Part shown: positions 55,182 through 64,000 of the stretch, in pieces
Numbering within the stretch: position 1 is the first letter of the stretch
Layout: every line of letters begins with the position of its first letter
Source of the DNA: Burkholderiaceae bacterium
GTDB lineage: Bacteria; Pseudomonadota; Gammaproteobacteria; Burkholderiales; Burkholderiaceae_F
Reading direction: 5' to 3'
DNA: 64,000 bases
Assembly: GCA_022843955.1 (NCBI GenBank)
Contig: JALHMQ010000003.1
Coordinates: forward strand, 186,001 to 250,000
Made by a program: the position numbers and the translations under genes
Notes under the pieces: model-generated
Database searches by the model: none
The model's input: the letters and a program-made list of their open reading frames with translations, nothing else
Told to the model about the DNA's origin: nothing

Positions 55182-55823
55182 CTACGCAACCAGTTGCAGC
55201 AACTCGCCCGGCGCGCCCAGCAGCAGGTGAGGGTGGGCGGCACGAAGCTCGGCGGCGCTGCCGTGGCCCCACAGCACTCCCACCGCGCGCAAGCCGTTGG
55301 CGTGGGCGGCCAGGATGTCGATGTCACGGTCGCCGATCATGGTCGCGGCCTCACTCAGCGCCCCGGCGGCGCGCAGGCTGCGCAGCTGGTCCGCCTTGCG
55401 CACGCCAATGTCGCCACCGCTCACAAACGCAAAGTGCTCGCGCAGGCTGAACAGCGCGAGGATCTGCTCGGCAAAGTCGACCCGCTTGGTGGTGCACACG
55501 CCGAGCGTCACGCCGCGCTCGCGCAGCCGCTGCAGCACCGGCGGCATGTCCGGGTAGAGCTGATTCTCGGCGTAGCCGACCTGGGCATAGCGCTCGCGGT
55601 AGGCGGCCACCAGGCGCGTGATCAACTCGCTGTCAGCCGCCGGCACAAGTCGCGCAAAGCTCTCGTCCAGCGGCGGGCCGATGCAGCGCGACACCTCATC
55701 CGCGCCAATCGCCGCAAAGCCATGCGCCACCAGCGCATGGTTGATCGAGCGGCCGATGCCGAGCGCCGGATCGCTGATGGTGCCGTCGAGGTCGAAGACC
55801 AGCACCGCAGCGGCGCGCGTCAT
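55182..55823 (-). CDS. HAD-IA hydrolase (phosphoglycolate phosphatase-like)
   Basis: A 213-aa HAD phosphatase of subfamily IA. Motif I is VFDLDGTISDP with D11 as nucleophile and D13 as acid/base. An alpha-helical cap runs about 17-80 (SINHALVAHGFAAIG, IGPPLDESFARLV). Motif II is LGVCTTKR, motif III the Lys in GVRKADQ, and motif IV MIGDRDIDILAA. It resembles phosphoglycolate phosphatases and PpaX-like enzymes, but the exact substrate is uncertain. ATG 55823 begins just before the first strand; translation further upstream would add a low-quality Cys/Arg-rich stretch. It is convergent with mnmC. Confidence 0.88.
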   Translation of the reverse strand: MTRAAAVLVFDLDGTISDPALGIGRSINHALVAHGFAAIGADEVSRCIGPPLDESFARLVPAADSELITRLVAAYRERYAQVGYAENQLYPDMPPVLQRLRERGVTLGVCTTKRVDFAEQILALFSLREHFAFVSGGDIGVRKADQLRSLRAAGALSEAATMIGDRDIDILAAHANGLRAVGVLWGHGSAAELRAAHPHLLLGAPGELLQLVA

Positions 55824-56246
55824 GCACGGCCGATCTGCGCAAACGTCCTTGGAGCGATGCGTGGGCCGACACGCGCACGTACTCGGTCGTTCAAGGGGGC
55901 AGGCAGCAGGGGAGGTGGTCGAACTGTCTTGTTTGCCAATGCTAGCCAACGTGCAGAAATCACCTGCGAGGGCGTGTCAGCCAGGCATCCGCGACGATTA
56001 AGCGAGGCTTTGGTATTTGACCGCCGGACGGCGTTGCGTTGCAGGACAGTCAGATCGTCTAGTTGATTTTTGGGAAACGTGAACTACTGCCACGTCAACG
56101 CAGTTCTACAGCAGTGCGTGACGCAGCTCGATATGCGTTGTTATCCTGCACGGTGGTTCAATACAAAACCTTAGGCGCCACGTGGCACGTATCGCTTCAA
56201 GCGTTGCAGTCTTCGACGTTAGTAGGCTGCCTATCACCATCGTTTC
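55824..56246. other. Intergenic region at the entry to the accessory segment
   Basis: This 423-bp stretch marks a change from very high GC to visibly AT-richer DNA (clear from about 55930 on). No coding sequence is convincing. TTGTTA (56138-56143) and TACAAA (56162-56167) with an 18-bp spacer form a plausible promoter about 80 bp before the RelA/SpoT gene. No tRNA or attachment-site repeat was recognised at this boundary. Confidence 0.4.
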
Positions 56247-57779
56247 ATGAGCGGGACAGAGGCCATGAGCCAAAATTTCGACTTTGAGCAGCATCGGATC
56301 AAGTCCCTCGAGGCCTACGGAGCAGTTCGTGAGCGATACGTTCGCTATGCAAATGCTATTGAAACCATCCTCCGCATGGCTCTGCGTGATATTCCTACTC
56401 ATCACATCAGTGCTCGAGCAAAGGACATAGAGCGATTTGCGGCTAAGGCCGCAAAGCCGGATTCGGACGATCCACTTCGACCCAAGTACGCCGAGCCTTT
56501 GCAGCAGATCGAAGATTTGGCGGGTGCTCGAGTCATCGCTTATGTGCTCCGAACTCTGCCGCTTGTTGAGCAAATGGTTTACCGGGAGTTCGATGTCGTA
56601 GAGCGAAGCGACAAAGGGGACCAACTAATCGAGAAGGCGCTGGTCGGGTACCGGAGCATTCACTTCATCGTTCAGATGAAAGCAGATCGCGTGAAGCTCC
56701 TCGAATACCGCGAGTTTGCCGATCTCCGCGCTGAGGTTCAGATTCGGACAATCCTCCAACACGCTTGGGCTGAGATTGAACACGATATGCGATACAAGCC
56801 AGCGGCCGAGCCGAACAAGACTTTGAGCCAACGCTTCACAGCGCTTGCTGGGTTGATCGAAGTCGGCGATCGGGAGTTCGATCAAATCTACGAGATAGAT
56901 GACAAGCGGCGGAAGGGCCTGCTCGATCTGGCTCAGATCAACGAAGCCGTTCCTGAGCCGACCGAGGCAGGGAAGAAGCCAAGGGGTCCTAACGACAATC
57001 CGCTGCCCACTCTGCGACAACCGGAGCTGATTCTGGGACAGGTACTTGACTTGAGCGCAGCGCAGCCGAGAGAGCTTATGGCACGCGGCCGATACGCTGA
57101 TGCGATTGTCCGTTACAGCAGTCTCATCGAGCGGGAGCCGCGCCAGTTCGGTCACTATCTGGGTCGCGCGAAGGCCCGTTTTTTGTTTGGAGACGTGTCA
57201 GGCGCCGTTGCCGACATAGGTGCCGCTGAGGCAGTGAGCCCCGACCATCCCTTTATTGCCAGCGTACGCAATCTAATCGAGGGCAAGCTTTCCGATCAAC
57301 GACCTGGCAACGACCAAGGCCTCGCGCTGCGACAAGGGCACACCGCGCTACGCGATGGCAACGCAGCGGAGGCGCATCGCAAGTATGAGGAAGCCGAGTC
57401 CCTCGGCTTCAGTCCGGTGCTCTCAGTATTTAACCGAGCGATGGCGCGGTTCCTGGAGCGTAATTTTGAGCTCTGCCGGCGGACACTTGACCGGATCGAC
57501 CCGAACCCGGGTTCCGTTTTGGAGTTCAATGTGATAGTGCTACGGACTCTTTGCTACCTGATGGCGGGAGGAGAGAAGATTGAGGCCGCGCTTGAGCTGA
57601 TTCGCGCACGCTTGCAGATCGCAATAGCGACGTCCGGCTATCAATACAACGCGCGCTCACCCCTGGTGGATCTTGAAACCGGAATGAAGAAGAAGTTTGA
57701 CGCTGAGGAACTGAAGAAGATTGGAGGAGTCTTTGATGTGCTACATGAAGCCGCACCGCATCCAATGCAGGGCGTCTGA
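56247..57779 (+). CDS. RelA/SpoT (p)ppGpp-synthetase-domain protein with C-terminal TPR-like repeats
   Basis: A 510-aa protein. Residues about 20-225 form a RelA/SpoT nucleotide pyrophosphokinase domain with the key residues present: R57, K59 and K67 in ISARAKDIERFAAKA, D90 in EDLAGARV, the G-loop GYRSIH (134-139) and EVQIRT (163-168). It should therefore make (p)ppGpp, ppApp or modify RNA as other small synthetases do. No HD hydrolase, TGS or ACT domain is present. Residues about 275-460 look like TPR repeats (LMARGRYADAIVRYSSLIEREP, DGNAAEAHRKYEEAESLGFS). ATG 56247 and 56265 are both possible starts. Base composition is AT-richer than the core, suggesting transfer. Stand-alone synthetases can be anti-phage effectors (CapRel, ToxSAS). 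Confidence 0.88.
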   Translation: MSGTEAMSQNFDFEQHRIKSLEAYGAVRERYVRYANAIETILRMALRDIPTHHISARAKDIERFAAKAAKPDSDDPLRPKYAEPLQQIEDLAGARVIAYVLRTLPLVEQMVYREFDVVERSDKGDQLIEKALVGYRSIHFIVQMKADRVKLLEYREFADLRAEVQIRTILQHAWAEIEHDMRYKPAAEPNKTLSQRFTALAGLIEVGDREFDQIYEIDDKRRKGLLDLAQINEAVPEPTEAGKKPRGPNDNPLPTLRQPELILGQVLDLSAAQPRELMARGRYADAIVRYSSLIEREPRQFGHYLGRAKARFLFGDVSGAVADIGAAEAVSPDHPFIASVRNLIEGKLSDQRPGNDQGLALRQGHTALRDGNAAEAHRKYEEAESLGFSPVLSVFNRAMARFLERNFELCRRTLDRIDPNPGSVLEFNVIVLRTLCYLMAGGEKIEAALELIRARLQIAIATSGYQYNARSPLVDLETGMKKKFDAEELKKIGGVFDVLHEAAPHPMQGV

Positions 57780-57988
57780 CGCCTCCATCGGGCGGACGCC
57801 CATCTAGGCACGCGCTGAAGTACATGGTTTTTAGGCGAACGATTCCATGCGCACGCGCGGAAGTTGCTTCATCCGTCGAACGATCACGCTTGAAAGCGAT
57901 GGCGCGAACTTTTGCGAAACGCGGCGCGCTGCGTGCTACGTCGGCGAGTGAATCAGCGTGTTCTTAAGCCCGGCAACCGGAGATCTTC

Positions 57989-58462
57989 TTGCAACTAGAG
58001 CCGAAAGACATCGTGGTCACCATCGGTATCGCCGTCACGCTTCTATTGGGACTTTGGAATCTCTGGGTCAACCATAAAGCCAACCGTCGAACGACCTTCG
58101 TCAATACAGTTACCAGCCAGAGAATCAAGTGGGTTGAGCAATTGCGTCAAGATATTGGTTCGTATAGCGGTCTTGCATATCACTGGTCCTGCACGAGCAT
58201 TGAAGACGAAGCGGAAAAGCGGAAGCTCATTGTCGAGCTAGACAGGCTCCGGTATGTGATCCGTCTTCGCCTCAATCCAGAAGGCACACAAGACAAGACG
58301 ATTGAGAGACTTGTCGAGTCGATCTCACGGCTATCTGAGAATCAGGATGCCGTCGCCAAGATCCTGGACGAACTCACTGTCGCATCTCAGGCACTTCTGA
58401 AAGAAGAGTGGGAGAAAGTCAAAGCGGAGTCAGAGTATGGCCCGCTCAGCACTCGGGCCTAG
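57989..58462 (+). CDS. Single-pass membrane protein downstream of the RelA/SpoT-TPR gene
   Basis: A 157-aa protein with one N-terminal transmembrane helix (VVTIGIAVTLLLGLWNLWVN, about residues 9-28) and a cytoplasmic, mostly helical, charged domain (RIKWVEQLRQDIGSYSGLAYHW, EKRKLIVELDRLRYVIRLRL). The start is TTG 57989, supported by GGAG 7 bases upstream; the helix begins right after it. I do not recognise a family with a known function, though similar one-TM helical proteins are common in accessory islands. It shares the AT-richer composition of the RelA/SpoT gene 209 bp upstream, and may be its partner (inference). Confidence 0.65.
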   Translation: MQLEPKDIVVTIGIAVTLLLGLWNLWVNHKANRRTTFVNTVTSQRIKWVEQLRQDIGSYSGLAYHWSCTSIEDEAEKRKLIVELDRLRYVIRLRLNPEGTQDKTIERLVESISRLSENQDAVAKILDELTVASQALLKEEWEKVKAESEYGPLSTRA

Positions 58463-58540
58463 CCCCCCGCTCAAGCGGAGCGCCACGGCGGGCCACCAAA
58501 TCCGGCCTGGTGGTACGCGACGGGTCCTTCGTCTATCGCA

Positions 58541-58693
58541 ATGTCATCAGAATCGACCCTTCACTTCTTCTGCGGCAAGGCGGGCGCTGGCAAGACCACC
58601 GTCGAGCAGACAAAGGGAGCAGACAAACCAGACAAAGGGGCCAGCGTCGATTTTCCCGTCGCATCGGACACGTCGCAAGCAGCGCGCCGTTGA
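58541..58693 (+). pseudogene. Truncated duplicate of the P-loop ATPase gene 5' end
   Basis: A 50-codon frame begins MSSESTLHFFCGKAGAGKTT, matching the start of the intact P-loop gene at 59442. The DNA is identical over 46 bases (58559-58604 versus 59460-59505), continues after a 15-bp in-frame deletion for a few bases, then diverges into short AGACAAA repeats and stops at 58693. Only the Walker A segment remains, so it is a broken copy, not a functional ATPase. Confidence 0.8.
58632..58656. repeat. REP-like repeat, copy 1
   Basis: acaaaggggccagcgt at 58632-58647 followed two bases later by attttcc (58650-58656). The same arrangement recurs at 59377-59401. The two copies are in direct orientation and bracket the LysE-family gene. 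Confidence 0.65.
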
Positions 58694-58727
58694 ACTCTGT
58701 CCTACGCATCAGAACACACCACACCCT

Positions 58728-59360
58728 ATGATCGACGCACACTGGTTCCTGTTCCTCCTTGCCTCCGTAGTCGTCATCGCTACGCCTGGACAAGACATGA
58801 TTCTTGTCATGTCAAAGTCGCTCGCGCATGGAGTCAAGGCGGGCGTCACTACCGCGGCTGGTGTGAGCGTAGGTTTAGTCGGCCACACGCTACTTGCTAC
58901 TCTAGGCCTCGGTGCGCTTCTGCGTACTTCGGAGTGGCTCTTCACGGCGCTGAAGTTCTTCGGCGCGGCATACCTCCTTTACCTCGGCGTTCAACTTCTT
59001 CTCACTCGCGCCGCGCAGCTACGGACTGCGACCGCTTCGCCGCAGTCTCCGATGCGCCTCTTCGTCACCGGTGCGGTTTCGAACATCAGCAACCCCAAGA
59101 TTGCTGTCTTCTACTTCGCCTTTCTGCCTCAGTTCATTGTGTCCGGCGCAACGCATCCCACCCTGACTGTTTTTGTGCTCGGATTTCTCTTCGCGGTGCT
59201 CACCTTCGTCATCAAAGGCCCGGTGGCTTTCTTCGCTGGTCGGCTCTCGTCGTGGTTTCAGTCCCGTCCGGCTGCTCTCGTTTGGCTCTATCGGTGCAGT
59301 GGCTTGGTTATGGTTGGTCTTGCGGTGCGCCTGGCTCTGTCCCGCCGCGCTGATGCCTGA
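58728..59360 (+). CDS. LysE/RhtB family amino-acid exporter
   Basis: A 210-aa inner-membrane protein of the LysE/RhtB superfamily, which exports amino acids such as homoserine, threonine or lysine. It has about six hydrophobic segments, the family start HWFLFLLASVVVIATPGQDMILVMSKSLAHG with the conserved PG motif, AGVSVGLVGHTLLATLGLGALL, and NISNPKIAVFYFAFLPQFI. ATG 58728 is the family start. GC is intermediate between core and the preceding genes. It is flanked by direct repeats and by a broken copy of the following P-loop gene, suggesting insertion as a unit. Confidence 0.92.
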   Translation: MIDAHWFLFLLASVVVIATPGQDMILVMSKSLAHGVKAGVTTAAGVSVGLVGHTLLATLGLGALLRTSEWLFTALKFFGAAYLLYLGVQLLLTRAAQLRTATASPQSPMRLFVTGAVSNISNPKIAVFYFAFLPQFIVSGATHPTLTVFVLGFLFAVLTFVIKGPVAFFAGRLSSWFQSRPAALVWLYRCSGLVMVGLAVRLALSRRADA

Positions 59361-59376
59361 CCCCACTTGAAGCAGC

Positions 59377-59401
59377 ACAAAGGGGCCAGCGTTCATTTTC
59401 C
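59377..59401. repeat. REP-like repeat, copy 2
   Basis: acaaaggggccagcgt at 59377-59392 followed by attttcc at 59395-59401, matching copy 1 at 58632-58656. It lies just after the LysE-type gene and before the intact P-loop gene. A preceding tgaccccact gives it the look of a REP-type palindromic element found at many intergenic sites. Confidence 0.65.
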
Positions 59402-59441
59402 TGACTGAAGGTCGGGCGGTTCGCTACCCACTCCATTAGCT

Positions 59442-59933
59442 ATGCGTGAGACGCCGACTCTTCACTTCTTCTGCGGCAAGGCGGGCGCTGGCAAGACCAC
59501 CGTCGCCGCGCGAGTCGCCGAGCAGCACCGGGCGATCCTGGTGTCGGAAGACATCTGGCTCACGCGGCTCTATGGTGACGAGATGAAGACCTTCGACGAC
59601 TACATCAGGTTTTCGCGCAGGCTCCGGACGGTGGTCGGGCCGTTGGCGGTCGATCTCTTGAAGGCGGGTCATTCGGTCGTACTCGACTTTCAGGCCAATA
59701 CCAGGTCCGGCCGCAGCTGGTTTCGCTCGATCTTCGAGCAGGCGGGTGCGGCGCACGTCCTGCACCACCTCGATACGCCGGACGACCTGTGTCTGGCGCG
59801 GATCGCGCGGCGCAACGTCGAGCGACCTGATGGTTCGCATCACTTGACGGAAGAGGACTTCATGCACGTGTCGTCCTACTTCCAGCCGATCGAAGCGAGC
59901 GAAGGATTCAATGTCGAGGTCCACGCAGCATGA
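59442..59933 (+). CDS. P-loop ATPase/kinase (AAA family, zeta-toxin/CPT-like)
   Basis: A 163-aa stand-alone P-loop protein with Walker A GKAGAGKTT at residues 12-20, an SEDIWLTRLYGDEM segment with an acidic pair, a Walker B-like strand SVVLDFQANTRSGR, and a C-terminal lid with ARIARRNVERPDG. The size and motif order resemble small nucleotide-dependent kinases (chloramphenicol phosphotransferase, zeta-toxin-like or gluconate kinase-like). The phosphoacceptor is unknown. ATG 59442 aligns with the truncated copy at 58541. No antitoxin-like gene is adjacent. Confidence 0.8.
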   Translation: MRETPTLHFFCGKAGAGKTTVAARVAEQHRAILVSEDIWLTRLYGDEMKTFDDYIRFSRRLRTVVGPLAVDLLKAGHSVVLDFQANTRSGRSWFRSIFEQAGAAHVLHHLDTPDDLCLARIARRNVERPDGSHHLTEEDFMHVSSYFQPIEASEGFNVEVHAA

Positions 59934-60050
59934 GTCTTGACCTGGTGCAGGGCCGAGGCGCTTGGTTCGGCGGCCGCGTGTGCCGACTCTCGGTCGCGGC
60001 GGGGCCGGCCCTGTCTCGCTCACAGTGCCGCCGCTTGCCATCGCGACTAG

Positions 60051-60647
60051 ATGACCGAAGCCCCTGATCCGTCCGTGCATCCGCTCAGCCGCGCCGAGTG
60101 GCGCGCGTGGCTGGCGGCCAATCACGGCCGCACGACCGGTGTGTGGCTCGTCTCCTACAAGAAGGCGACCGGCAAGCCGCGGGTGGAGTACGACGCCGCA
60201 GTCGAAGAGGCGCTGTGCTTCGGCTGGGTGGACAGCAAGCCCAACAAGCTCGACGCGGAACGAACGCTGCTGTGGTTTGCGCCACGCAAGCGCGGCACCG
60301 GCTGGTCTCGGCCGAACAAGATTCGTGTTGAACGGATGATCCAGGCGGGCCTGATGGCGGAGGCCGGCCTGCACAAGGTGGAGGAGGCAAAGCGTGACGG
60401 GTCGTGGACGAAGCTCGACGCCGTTGAAGACCTGGTCGTGCCGCCGGACCTGTTGGCAGCACTGAGCCGGTACCCCGAGGCCGGCAAGCATTTCGATGCC
60501 TTTCCGCGCTCGGCCCGGCGGGGCATCCTGGAGTGGATCGCAAACGCTAAGACGGCACCGACCCGAGCCCGGCGGATCGACGAGACTGCGCGGCTGGCGA
60601 GCACGAACGAAAGAGCAAATCAGTGGCGCCCGAAAGCTGCGCCTTGA
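60051..60647 (+). CDS. YdeI/OmpD-associated family protein
   Basis: A 198-aa cytoplasmic protein of the YdeI/OmpD-associated (bacteriocin-protection-like) family. Diagnostic stretches are EWRAWLAANHGRTTGVWLVSYKKATGKPRVEYDAAVEEALCFGWVDSKP-type sequence (residues 16-64), ERTLLWFAPRKRGTGWSRPNKIRVERM, and the C-terminal LEWIANAKTAPTRARRIDETARLA. Members are linked to antimicrobial-peptide and polymyxin tolerance in enterics but their biochemistry is unsettled. ATG 60051 gives the family start. It stands alone among small stress-type genes. Confidence 0.9.
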   Translation: MTEAPDPSVHPLSRAEWRAWLAANHGRTTGVWLVSYKKATGKPRVEYDAAVEEALCFGWVDSKPNKLDAERTLLWFAPRKRGTGWSRPNKIRVERMIQAGLMAEAGLHKVEEAKRDGSWTKLDAVEDLVVPPDLLAALSRYPEAGKHFDAFPRSARRGILEWIANAKTAPTRARRIDETARLASTNERANQWRPKAAP

Positions 60648-60734
60648 TGACTGATCTCTGTGGGCCACCGCGCGGCAGCGGGTGTCGTTCGCTGCCACAC
60701 TCGCGTCGGATTCATCCTTAGGCGACAAGCCTGT

Positions 60735-61466
60735 ATGCCGACAGCCACACCACCCACCCTCATCTCGGCCCGCGTCGCGGGCCTGATGTACCTGGCGATC
60801 ATTGCCCTCGGCCTGTTCGGCGAGGTGTTCGTGCGTGCTGCGCTCGTGGTGGGTGGTGACGTGGCCGCCACGGCGACCAACATCCTCGCCGCCGAGCAAC
60901 TGTGGCGCACCGGCATCGCCACCGATCTGGTCATGCACGTGCTGGACGTGCCGCTGATCGTGTTCTTCTACCTGCTGCTCAAGCCCGTCAGTCAGCCGCT
61001 CGCGCTGCTGGCCACGGCGTTCAACATCGTGCAGACCTGCGTGCTCGCAGCCAACAAGCTCACGCTGGTGGCCGCTCTGTCGCTGCTCAAATCCGCAGGA
61101 ATGTCGGCGAGCCTGGCCGACGCGCAAGCGCTTGCATCGCTCGCGGTCAACCTGCATGGCTACGGCTTCGGGATCGGCCTCATCTTCTTTGGCTTCACCT
61201 GCGTGCTGCGCGGGTACCTGATCGTCAGGTCGGGCTACGTGCCGCGCGTCCTGGGCGTGTTGCTGGTGGTGGCGGGCATCGGTTACCTGGTCAACAGCTT
61301 TGCGTTGCTGGTGGCGCCACGGCTGGCGGCGATGCTGTTTCCGGCGGTGCTGCTGCCTGCGTTGGTGGCCGAACTGGCGCTCTCCGTCTGGCTGCGGTTC
61401 ACCAACGAACGCACGCTGCAGCGGCGGCTTGCCGGGGCCAACACGGCGGCGGCGCCGGGCGGGTAG
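60735..61466 (+). CDS. DUF4386 family membrane protein
   Basis: A 243-aa integral membrane protein with about six hydrophobic segments. The start ISARVAGLMYLAIIALGLFGEVFVRAALVV and LVMHVLDVPLIVFFYLLLKPVSQPLALLATAFNIVQTCVLAANK are characteristic of DUF4386. Also present are GYGFGIGLIFFGFTCVLRGYLI and VLLVVAGIGYLVNSF. The function is unknown. ATG 60735 fits; upstream in-frame sequence is not membrane-like. Neighbours are unrelated small genes on the same strand. Confidence 0.88.
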   Translation: MPTATPPTLISARVAGLMYLAIIALGLFGEVFVRAALVVGGDVAATATNILAAEQLWRTGIATDLVMHVLDVPLIVFFYLLLKPVSQPLALLATAFNIVQTCVLAANKLTLVAALSLLKSAGMSASLADAQALASLAVNLHGYGFGIGLIFFGFTCVLRGYLIVRSGYVPRVLGVLLVVAGIGYLVNSFALLVAPRLAAMLFPAVLLPALVAELALSVWLRFTNERTLQRRLAGANTAAAPGG

Positions 61467-61616
61467 CGCCCTGCATCGGGCGGCGGATGCATTCACCGTT
61501 TGCTCGATGCAGCCCCTCTGGCAAGGTGCTTGGGTGCCGCGGATCGCAAGGCTATTCTCCCGCTCGCGGCCCACGGATGGCGCCGCAGCGACGAACCCTC
61601 GACCCTGCAGGCCATC

Positions 61617-62084
61617 ATGCCGATCATCACGTCCGAGCAGCAGCTTGTCCAAGAGATCACCTACTTCAAGGGCAAGGCGCCGAACCTGGAATGCTGGATC
61701 AGTGAACCCGGTGGGCTGACGCAGTTCGGCGCCTTTGTCCATGTGCTGCAGCCCGACACGCGTTCATCGATCAAGCACTGGCACAGTGACGAAGACGAGC
61801 TGGTGTACGTGCTCGAGGGCGAGTTGACGGTGGTGGAGGGCGCCCAGGAGGTCGTGCTGCACGCGGGGGACGCCGCCACGTTCAAGGCTGGCGTCGCGGT
61901 TGGGCACTTTCTGTGGAACCGCAGTGCGAGCCCCGCCAAGTGCCTGGTCGTCGGCACGCGCGCGGCGACTGATCGCGTGACCTACCCGGACCACGATCGG
62001 CTGTTGCATCGGGATCGTTCGCAACCGGAAGATCTCTGGACCGACCTGCAGGGACGGCCGGCGTCCGATCCCTACGCTGCCTGA
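61617..62084 (+). CDS. Cupin-domain protein
   Basis: A 155-aa cupin. The barrel has motif 1 as KHWHSDEDELVYVLEGELTVV (about residues 49-69), with two His and a Glu able to bind metal, and motif 2 as HAGDAATFKAGVAVGHFLWN. The C-terminal tail YPDHDRLLHRDRSQPEDLW is typical of a widespread family of small stress-related or sugar-binding cupins. ATG 61617 is the first codon that matches the family; the frame upstream is not coding-like. Function unknown. Confidence 0.85.
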   Translation: MPIITSEQQLVQEITYFKGKAPNLECWISEPGGLTQFGAFVHVLQPDTRSSIKHWHSDEDELVYVLEGELTVVEGAQEVVLHAGDAATFKAGVAVGHFLWNRSASPAKCLVVGTRAATDRVTYPDHDRLLHRDRSQPEDLWTDLQGRPASDPYAA

Positions 62085-62170
62085 GGCGGGGCGCAGGTCG
62101 CGCGTCTGCCTTGCCGGCGCCGAACCGCTCTTCGCACAGGGCTGGAACATCGAACAGAACCGGAGGTCCC

Positions 62171-62221
62171 GTGAAGCTGATCGGCATGCTTGACTCGCCC
62201 TACGTGCGCGGAGGCGGTTGA
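62171..62221 (+). pseudogene. Glutathione S-transferase N-terminal remnant
   Basis: GTG 62171, with GGAGG 4 bases upstream, opens a 16-codon frame beginning [13 protein letters not shown]. That is the start of the beta-proteobacterial GST thioredoxin-like domain, where SPYVRRV is the glutathione-binding entry. It then runs into a stop at 62219-62221. The rest of the gene (about 190 codons) is missing; only the ribosome binding site and first strand survive. Confidence 0.6.
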
Positions 62222-62231
62222 AGGCCCGCTG

Positions 62232-62339
62232 ATGCAGTTGATCCGGCAACTGGACAAGCTGGTCGACGAGCTGGCCAAAGGCAAGGCGATGGAGAAGATC
62301 CTGCGCCCAGGAGCACCGCCCGATCAGCGCCGACAATGA
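62232..62339 (+). CDS. Possible small charged peptide or gene fragment (35 aa)
   Basis: Directly after the GST remnant an ATG opens [20 protein letters not shown] and ends PPDQRRQ at 62339. The sequence is a plausible amphipathic helix and the same frame continues upstream without a stop into the GST remnant, so it may be the C-terminal piece of a deleted gene rather than a real small protein. I do not recognise it. Confidence 0.25.
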
Positions 62340-62363
62340 CAGTCACCTCGAAGGAGTGGCAGT

Positions 62364-62762
62364 GTGAGTTCGCTTGATCAGCAGATACAGGCGCAACTCC
62401 AGGCGCAGATACAGGCGCTCGAGGTTGAGCTTCACCATCCGGGCGTGCGCTGCAGCCGCGCGCGGCTCGAGCAATTGCTTCACCCGCAGTTCCACGAAGT
62501 CGGTCGGTCGGGGCGTGCGTACTCGCGCGAGACCGTGATCGAGTTCCTGCTGAGCCAGGCAGCACCGCCTGATGTGCGACCCGAGCACTTCCTGCTGGCG
62601 GAACTGGCGCCGGGTGTCGTGCTGCTTACGTATCGGTCTGCGCAGGGGCAAGCGGACAGTCAGCAGGTGAACCACACGCTGCGCTCATCGGTGTGGCTAC
62701 GATCGGGCGGCTCCTGGCAGCTTCGGTATCACCAAGGGACACCGGCGGCGCAGGCGTGGTGA
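62364..62762 (+). CDS. DUF4440-like / SnoaL-fold protein
   Basis: A 132-aa protein of the NTF2-like DUF4440 type. An N-terminal helix (LDQQIQAQLQAQIQALEVELHHP) is followed by LEQLLHPQFHEVGRSGRAYSRETVIEFL, the usual block of nuclear transport factor 2-like domains that cradles a ligand pocket. The core ends with VVLLTYRSAQGQ and SSVWLRSGGSWQLRYHQGTP. The start is GTG 62364 with AAGGAG 7-8 bases upstream. Function unknown. It follows the GST remnant and precedes a non-coding gap. Confidence 0.85.
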   Translation: MSSLDQQIQAQLQAQIQALEVELHHPGVRCSRARLEQLLHPQFHEVGRSGRAYSRETVIEFLLSQAAPPDVRPEHFLLAELAPGVVLLTYRSAQGQADSQQVNHTLRSSVWLRSGGSWQLRYHQGTPAAQAW

Positions 62763-63067
62763 TCATGGGCTCGATCAGCGCCTTCGATCCAAGCCGCTAT
62801 GCCGCAGTCATCGTCTGGTGCATACGTCTCGGCAAGTGCATCACGACGGCGCGGTGCAAGCGAACCAGGGCCGGCTTGTCCGCCGCGTTGGGCCAGCAGA
62901 CCTTTGCGGCGATCGAAGACCTCCCAACCTTCCGCACAGGCACAGCATCGATCGGGTCATAGGCGCGCAAGCTCGAACCCCCGTGAACAAGGGGTCCGTG
63001 CGGTGTCGTTTTTGCGAGCCTCCATTCGTCGTAGTACGAGCAGCACCCATTCACAGGAGAGACGACG
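62763..63067. other. Non-coding gap between the DUF4440-like and YciI genes
   Basis: A 305-bp stretch with no gene I can support. Short open frames exist on both strands but none has a ribosome binding site or recognisable motif. A small hairpin (CCCC / GGGG arms near 62979-62995) and the AGGAGAG ribosome binding site of the next gene are the only features. Confidence 0.4.
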
Positions 63068-63505
63068 ATGCGATTCATCATCACGGCACAGGCGGGCACG
63101 GACGACACGACATCACGCCCGCAGGCGGCTTTCGACGAGAAGCTCTTCGCGGCTTACATGAAGTTCAACGAGGACATGCACACGGCCGGGGTCCTGATCG
63201 CGTCCGAAGGGTTGAACCCTGCTGCAGCAGGCGCTCGCGTCGCGGTTTTGCAGGGCAGGCGACACGTCGTTGACGGCCCCTTTGCCGAGTCGAAGGAGTT
63301 GATCGGCGGCTTCTACATTATCGATGTGAAGTCGCTCGACGAGGCCATTCAGTGGGCGCTGCGCGCTCCCTGCGGATCGGGCATCGATGACGTGCTGGAG
63401 ATCCGTCAGTTGACGGGAGCAGGTGACCTTCCGGCGGAACTGCTCGGGATCATCAGAGCCGTTGCGCCCACGTGGAGCGCGTCTGTGTGGGAGGCGAAGG
63501 CGTAG
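63068..63505 (+). CDS. YciI/DGPF-domain protein
   Basis: A 145-aa YciI-like (DGPF domain) protein, related to PhnB-type and sigma-factor-associated small proteins. Key segments are MRFIITAQAG at the start, MKFNEDMHTAGVLIASEGL, and the diagnostic VVDGPFAESKELIGGFYIIDVKSLDEAIQWA, which includes the DGPF motif. ATG 63068 is preceded by AGGAGAGACG. In many bacteria such genes pair with an ECF sigma factor; none is seen here. It converges with a second YciI-like gene. Confidence 0.9.
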   Translation: MRFIITAQAGTDDTTSRPQAAFDEKLFAAYMKFNEDMHTAGVLIASEGLNPAAAGARVAVLQGRRHVVDGPFAESKELIGGFYIIDVKSLDEAIQWALRAPCGSGIDDVLEIRQLTGAGDLPAELLGIIRAVAPTWSASVWEAKA

Positions 63506-63604
63506 GTCGTCGAGGTTGGCGCTTCACTGCGTGCCATCTCTGCTTTGCGCTGCACGCGTGCGCATTGCACCAGGCGAGTCCTGCCGCAACAGCGTGACCG
63601 GCGC

Positions 63605-64000
63605 TTACATGCGCTTCTTGGCCAGGCGCTCGTGGATCTCGCGCACGCCCACCAGCGCAGCGCTGCCGTAGTACCGGTGGTACTCGGCGACCATTTCTCC
63701 CTTCACCAGCACCGGGTCGGTGGCGGCGAGCGCCTTGGCTTCATCGATGTCGCGCACCGCGAAGACGAACAGTCCGCGCCAGCCATCCACGCCGTCCAGC
63801 GGCCCGGCCAGCACCAGCTTGCCGTCGTCCGACAGGCGCTTCATGTTGGCAAAGTGGCCGCGGAACATCTCGTCGCGCGCTGGCCCGGCGGGCATCTTGT
63901 TGGGACCGGTCTTCAGGATCACCAGCACATACGGACGCATGCCGTAGTCGTCGGCGCCGAAGCGGGCGGCGAGCGTTTCGTCATAGGTCGCACTGGGCGG
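63605..64000 (-). CDS. YciI-like protein, partial (N-terminus beyond right edge)
   Basis: A minus-strand frame of 132 codons runs off the right edge, ending at 63605. It contains PPSATYDETLAARFGADDYG just inside the edge, then MRPYVLVILKTGPNKMPAG, NMKRLSDDGKLVLAGPLDG and AVRDIDEAKALAATDPVL, matching the YCII-related domain in which an Asp/His pair is implicated in activity. The sequence before the internal ATG at 63940 is clearly coding, so that ATG is not the start. Similar proteins with this N-terminal linker carry signal peptides, but that part is not visible here. Confidence 0.8.
   Translation of the reverse strand, partial: PPSATYDETLAARFGADDYGMRPYVLVILKTGPNKMPAGPARDEMFRGHFANMKRLSDDGKLVLAGPLDGVDGWRGLFVFAVRDIDEAKALAATDPVLVKGEMVAEYHRYYGSAALVGVREIHERLAKKRM

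Follow-up and report, generated by a model that had tools for sequence, protein, structure and literature searches.

In the window analysed here, i.e. the whole stretch of 64,000 nucleotides from a Burkholderiaceae bacterium, the gene of a LysE/RhtB-type exporter lies between two direct copies of a 25-bp element, and a short copy of the start of the following gene stands upstream of the first of them. The reading we favour, and hold with somewhat more confidence than doubt, is that this element is a TIRYT-type terminal repeat, one of the ends of a transposase element of the Y1/HuH kind (IS200/IS605-like, REP-associated), left behind with no transposase; that LysE sits in a low-GC, probably acquired segment between direct ends; that the stub, a short copy of the start of the gene next to it, was joined at the edge of a repeat; and that repeat-mediated joining is the most likely mechanism. 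Our confidence is set slightly lower than it would otherwise be because the transposase ORF found beside a copy of the repeat in another genome of the order (G573) is itself cut short.

On the plus strand the order is a stub ORF (58541-58693, 50 aa), the element, LysE (58728-59360, 210 aa), the element again and an intact P-loop gene (59442-59933, 163 aa), as the initial annotation had described it. The attttcc-type element which it had placed at 58632 and 59377 is indeed there: its two copies, E1 (58632-58656) and E2 (59377-59401), delimited by repeat comparison and family search, have the same orientation and agree at 23 of 25 nt, and the stub ORF continues into and through E1. The other direct pair, 58554-58604 and 59455-59505, is identical at 50 of 51 nt; the unbroken run of 46 identical P-loop bases reported earlier (58559-58604 and 59460-59505) is present as its closing part. 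Chance does not account for either pair: the 51-bp pair has an E value of 1.5e-17 when the window is compared with itself, and the 25-mer pattern, allowing up to 3 mismatches, matches twice in the window vs never in 100 dinucleotide shuffles. Joints beside repeats are classic points of mis-assembly, and this counts, together with the 63 contigs of the genome, in favour of an assembly artefact. Such an artefact is nevertheless very improbable: at 51 and 25 bp the repeats are short, and their copies are not identical; the locus sits some 244 kb from the start of a 387-kb contig; and similar arrangements occur in another genome.

The intact P-loop protein matches the kinase-like AAA_33 family over its whole length (PF13671, 107.1 bits for a cut-off of 27, E 1.2e-30). 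The stub (58541-58604) starts in register with it and comprises the start codon and the codons up to the Walker A motif (MSSESTLHFFCGKAGAGKTTV), 21 codons in total, then changes after GTCG; its 50-aa ORF gave no profile match above any cut-off, and it probably does nothing. The identity between stub and intact gene is sharp-edged: all nine bases of codons 2-4 differ, and so does the sequence past GTCG. We found 16 P-loop homologues, 49-75% identical, 15 of them at 64-75% protein identity; nine of these 15 closer ones we take to be Burkholderiales, and the others further Proteobacteria and cyanobacteria. Over the same 51 bases, 15 of the 16 homologues (the partial L051 was omitted) agree with the intact gene at 35-45 positions and with the stub at 35-46. 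The coding constraint of the Walker A motif, which is strong and had been thought unlikely to account alone for 46 identities out of 46, would on this comparison explain part of the match but not all of it: the agreement between stub and intact gene (50 of 51) exceeds that of every homologue compared, so that the two more probably share a recent origin, or were made alike by conversion, than agree through the constraint by itself.

That the stub is a truncated duplicate with a 15-bp deletion, as previously proposed, did not withstand inspection. Past the shared GTCG, the match at a shift of 15 is just 5 bases (AGCAG) among 60 shifts, a coincidence whose chance is about 6% by our own estimate. 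These 5 bases may equally well be read as the start of the repeat leader, AGCAGACAAAGGG AGCAGACAAACC AGACAAAGGGG. The stub ends at this leader, where truncated heads of the element, read from the sequence as AGCAGACAAAGGG / AGCAGACAAACC / AGAC, occupy 58605-58633 as if the head had stuttered.

The same facts might be accounted for by plain homologous integration: a donor or circle with LysE, the repeat and a P-loop start of diverged sequence would have crossed over within the 46 conserved bases to produce the order stub, LysE and intact gene, with the repeats as passengers. The exact agreement of the core and the difference upstream, at all nine bases of codons 2-4, are expected of 5' parts with different origins, and the start codons are in register. 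On the other hand the P-loop gene of the donor must already have been cut at the repeat, and the stubs and duplicated blocks found at repeat edges on contig C22 and in the genome G779 (see below) would be left unexplained, so that we regard this integration as unlikely.

Around the P-loop genes two further observations can be made. From 59442 to 63940 the window carries a run of small unrelated accessory-type genes (AAA_33, OmdA, DUF4386, cupin, DUF4440 and two YCII). In another Burkholderiales genome (L047, 8050-8892), TIR-like sequences lie 1.6-2.4 kb past the P-loop homologue.

A repeat private to the locus was considered and discarded: the strict pattern, with up to 3 mismatches, finds E1 and E2 alone, and looser patterns reveal a genome-wide family. 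A 22-base pattern occurs at 10 places in the genome (control 0), and the 20-base pattern AAAGGGGYCAGNNTCRATTT, with up to 3 mismatches, at 19 places vs 1 for the reversed-pattern control, so that a small number of the 19, at 3 mismatches, may be chance. The initial annotation had suggested looking for other copies, their absence elsewhere speaking against a recombination event; they are there, on contigs C3, C4, C9, C14, C15, C17, C19, C20, C22 and C26. By eye they form two sub-families, GGGGYCAG-GTCGATTT (C3, C4, C22 and singles) and GGGGTCAGRTTCAATTT (C9, C14, C17 and C20), and dimeric copies are found on C22, C20 and C14. With one mismatch the family is detected in 12 genomes, counting the present one, out of 399 from the order (control 0), and one genome has 37 copies; among 100 nearer relatives searched with a stricter form of the repeat, G021 is the sole other carrier; the exact core was found in none of 368 other genomes of the class, and the exact family pattern in no viral contig.

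E1 and E2 both read GGGGCCAG, which departs from the published GGGGWSAS at its fifth base, C; elsewhere in the genome there are copies with GGGGTCAG, and these fit. The palindrome at E2 consists of CTGACCCC (59357-59364, minus strand) opposite GGGGCCAG; CTGACCCC is the reverse complement of GGGGTCAG and includes the stop codon of LysE. This inverted head and E2 are perhaps a degenerate inverted dimer. Folded alone, E1 and E2 do no better than shuffles on either strand (z -0.36 to 0.74), and a search for RNA elements over 50-64 kb returned no known element, with one unrelated match below its gathering score.

E1 and E2 themselves are not beside a Y1/HuH transposase gene; members of their family are. 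On C22, two copies of the repeat precede truncated transposase frames starting MPRRTRVHLDGLPLHIVQRGHNREPC, each at 24 nt from the ATG; the second of these frames is frame-shifted. The N-terminus of this C22 stub is 53-54% identical, over 38-39 aa (E 1e-3 to 1e-4), to Rhodospirillum and Pseudomonas plasmid genes annotated as transposases. The Pseudomonas plasmid transposase reaches 75.6 bits with NCBIfam REP_Tyr_transpos, below the cut-off of 80, and both copies inspected on the plasmid are placed between AAAGGGGACAGATTTATTTTCCC and an inverted copy of it. In G573 a Y1 transposase ORF has its ATG 23 nt past the repeat. This ORF breaks off after 113 aa, over which it matches PF01797 (47.2 bits, cut-off 23), and at its N-terminus it shares 65% identity with the C22 stub across 37 residues. 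The one Y1_Tnp match of the genome above the Pfam cut-off is on C17; this transposase has the motifs NHVH, WE and YIEMNP and scores 73.5 bits with REP_Tyr_transpos, and the repeat adjoining it differs (GGGGTCAGATTCAATTT). The whole relatives fall just below the NCBIfam RAYT cut-off. No whole transposase was seen with exactly the E1/E2-type repeat, those of C22 and G573 being truncated, and the 141 bp of DNA of the C22 transposase stub had no match in plasmids. As the transposase closest to E1/E2 in sequence survives in this genome as a stub, activity today is doubtful. The Pseudomonas plasmid, from P. aeruginosa (L078, NZ_CP116719.1, 14239-22862), carries three annotated Y1-type transposase copies among small genes, some annotated with domains of toxin type; the two that were checked are both flanked by TIRs.

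One small gene between short repeats, then a row of small accessory-type genes, could also evoke an integron gene cassette. No attC-like pair (RYYYAAC ... GTTRRRY, 40-150 bp apart) starts in 58400-59500, the window having 3 such spans per strand, and on this attC evidence we rejected the cassette; the membership of the repeat in a transposase-end family also speaks against it, and we find it hardly credible.

LysE matches PF01810 over its whole length (120.2 bits for a cut-off of 25.6, E 1e-34) and is probably still functional as an exporter. Its GC content is 58.9% vs 67.7% for the window. It belongs to a low-GC stretch (55801-59400) in which 400-bp windows range from 51 to 62%, vs 64-68% beyond, and which ends near E2. 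Besides LysE and the P-loop stub, this stretch contains a RelA/SpoT-TPR gene, a small hypothetical gene and the relic of an IS5-type end (57893-57968, plus strand). Two copies elsewhere in the genome, on contigs C5 and C9, resemble the relic, with identities of 78% in 73 nt and 83% in 54 nt; the C5 one is directly upstream of an IS5-type transposase ORF with a PF05598 match of 71.6 bits and an NCBIfam IS5 match below its cut-off. An inverted match, 57922-57941 with 58670-58689 (18/20), was tried as a second IS end; the flanks differ, and we left it as chance.

Of 299 other genomes in the order, 8 have relatives of LysE (E<=1e-40). In the flanks examined (E<=1e-5), none of the 16 P-loop homologue loci has LysE and none of the 8 LysE homologue loci has the P-loop gene, so that their pairing is, as far as seen, local to this lineage. 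The low GC on the LysE side and the unpaired neighbourhoods of the homologues fit an acquisition, and LysE probably sits in an acquired segment. In DNA comparisons, 58400-59460 has no match in phages and, in plasmids, three weak Burkholderia matches, all inside LysE. No empty site or sister strain was found among 60 relatives compared with 57800-61500 with few candidates scored per genome (9 gave matches of at most 50 bases and 51 none).

These data are also relevant to another explanation, in which LysE arrived with the low-GC block of 55.8-59.4 kb and was not captured between the repeats, the repeats and the stub being unrelated leftovers in a degenerating acquired region. The low-GC stretch does far exceed the LysE unit, with its other genes and its IS5-type relic, and the repeat is within 1.5 kb of LysE at none of the 8 homologue loci outside this genome. 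At the opposite, the stretch ends near E2, and on contig C4 a dip of GC coincides with a pair of repeats: two mutually inverted copies surround a segment with two ORFs whose GC is 54-58%, against 63-73% in the rest of the region. We judge this explanation unlikely.

The joining at repeats that we prefer finds parallels at other loci of the family, the C4 segment just described being one of them. On C22 (L029, G000:C22, 4827-7700), a 318-bp block made of the repeat, the transposase stub and an inverted repeat occurs twice, at 91.5% identity, flanking one gene with weak zinc-ribbon and HIRAN matches, both below the Pfam cut-off; the paired repeats of the block fold much better than shuffles (z -7.3). 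A neighbouring gene stops at the repeat, its homologue on C19 extending further, to a weaker repeat of its own, and a 251-bp duplication (86.9%) begins 9 bp after the repeat. In G779, contig C104 (L095, 211-1417, minus strand) has four direct repeats, one of them degenerate, and two CCDC90-like small genes, one just above and one just below the Pfam cut-off; directly after the third repeat comes an N-terminal stub that reproduces the beginning of the first CCDC90-like gene, with 86% identity in 37 nt. This array, which lies after a DUF4258-DUF2283 pair, is the closest parallel to the LysE locus, with the difference that its stub follows a repeat whereas that of LysE precedes one. Repeats of the family therefore co-occur elsewhere with stubs and duplicated blocks, which does not imply that the repeats caused them.

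The 5' edges of the TIRs often bear truncated heads that recur together with their flank and give the impression, in 71 copies, of a stuttering head. These are non-identical elements at chosen loci, excluding those less than 50 bp from the end of a locus and the C9/C14/C17/C20 sub-family. Truncated heads with their own flank plus AAAG are found upstream of 16 of the 71, vs a mean of 8.9 and a maximum of 14 when flanks are shuffled within genomes; the count is a guide only, since clustered elements are dependent and, by eye, 4 cases among the 16 (G559, C15 and two of G568) either look weak or represent adjacent whole repeats. With whole upstream repeats kept in, it becomes 22 of 71, vs a mean of 5.2 and a maximum of 13 under a global shuffle of flanks.

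We read the LysE locus as a relic, the scar of a reshuffling around transposase-end repeats. The LysE segment would have been flanked by TIRYT-type ends in direct orientation with no transposase between them. Breakage, strand transfer or short-homology recombination at the repeats, possibly driven by a TIRYT supplied in trans, would most likely have placed this segment in front of the P-loop gene, with a 51-bp P-loop fragment remaining at the junction. REPs can mark the joints of duplications; our search of the literature met no paper clearly about this. TnpA-REP of E. coli is described as processing single-stranded REPs in vitro (PMC8266576). Of the recombination or insertion event first proposed as capturing the exporter, one part is supported, namely an event at a recurring transposase-end repeat; the capture itself, its order and the enzyme we infer. 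The data show the repeats and their family, the association with transposases elsewhere, the GC contrast and the end of the stub at the leader.

A bolder version would make of direct TIRYT-type ends a cassette system working in trans, which excises, copies or joins single accessory genes (LysE, the zinc-ribbon/HIRAN-like and CCDC90-like genes, perhaps those of toxin/immunity type), builds arrays of genes and repeats, and leaves N-terminal stubs and stuttered heads behind. We find this improbable. A puzzling repeat pattern is explained by a known, little studied transposase family, and the combination of direct TIRs with truncated heads and a gene stub that stops at the repeat gives a signature that can be searched for to ask whether these transposases reshuffle accessory genes. 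Such reshuffling, if it occurs, would amount to a way of gaining genes that has gone unrecognised; otherwise the locus is an ordinary scar; the bracketing of a single gene merits a modest look.

How does the locus compare with known systems? LysE matches the LysE/RhtB family (PF01810) over its full length, differing in that no NCBIfam equivalog cut-off is reached, and the P-loop protein matches the small AAA_33 kinase-like proteins (PF13671) likewise, with the difference that 66 other genomes of the bacterial family yield no match to it at E<=1e-20. For the element, the TIRYTs are the closest. As described by Di Nocera 2013 (PMC3733652), and likewise by Quentin 2018 (PMC6006769), their terminal repeats are GGGGWSAS and form dispersed TIR families; the latter paper places 20 of the 26 Di Nocera TIRYTs in TnpA-Y1 subclass 2.1, with motifs NHVH, W[EQ] and YIELNP. 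Our family shares with the TIRYT/TIRtron elements the terminal GGGG-CAG motif (here GGGGYCAG), the fixed short distance to the start codon of a Y1 transposase, and dispersed single and dimeric copies. It departs from them in that E1 and E2 enclose LysE and no transposase, are direct, and are one base off GGGGWSAS. As they are not an inverted pair around a transposase, we do not file E1-LysE-E2 as a TIRtron; the element alone is a likely member of the repeat family. With the REPs, REPINs and BIMEs of RAYTs it has in common short transposase-linked repeats, often in inverted dimers; it differs by about 20 copies instead of hundreds and by E1/E2 folding no better than chance. The element contains no GTAG tag of the kind found at the base of a stable hairpin, and we do not class it among GTAG REPs. 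In Nunvar 2010 (PMC2817692), 3' ends of rayt genes are reported as caught between REPs in four BIMEs; this is the nearest precedent we found for the LysE locus. Searches of the open-licence literature showed no single genes between direct TIRs with gene stubs. The element and its transposase class are already known, and the locus is a fresh occurrence of them.
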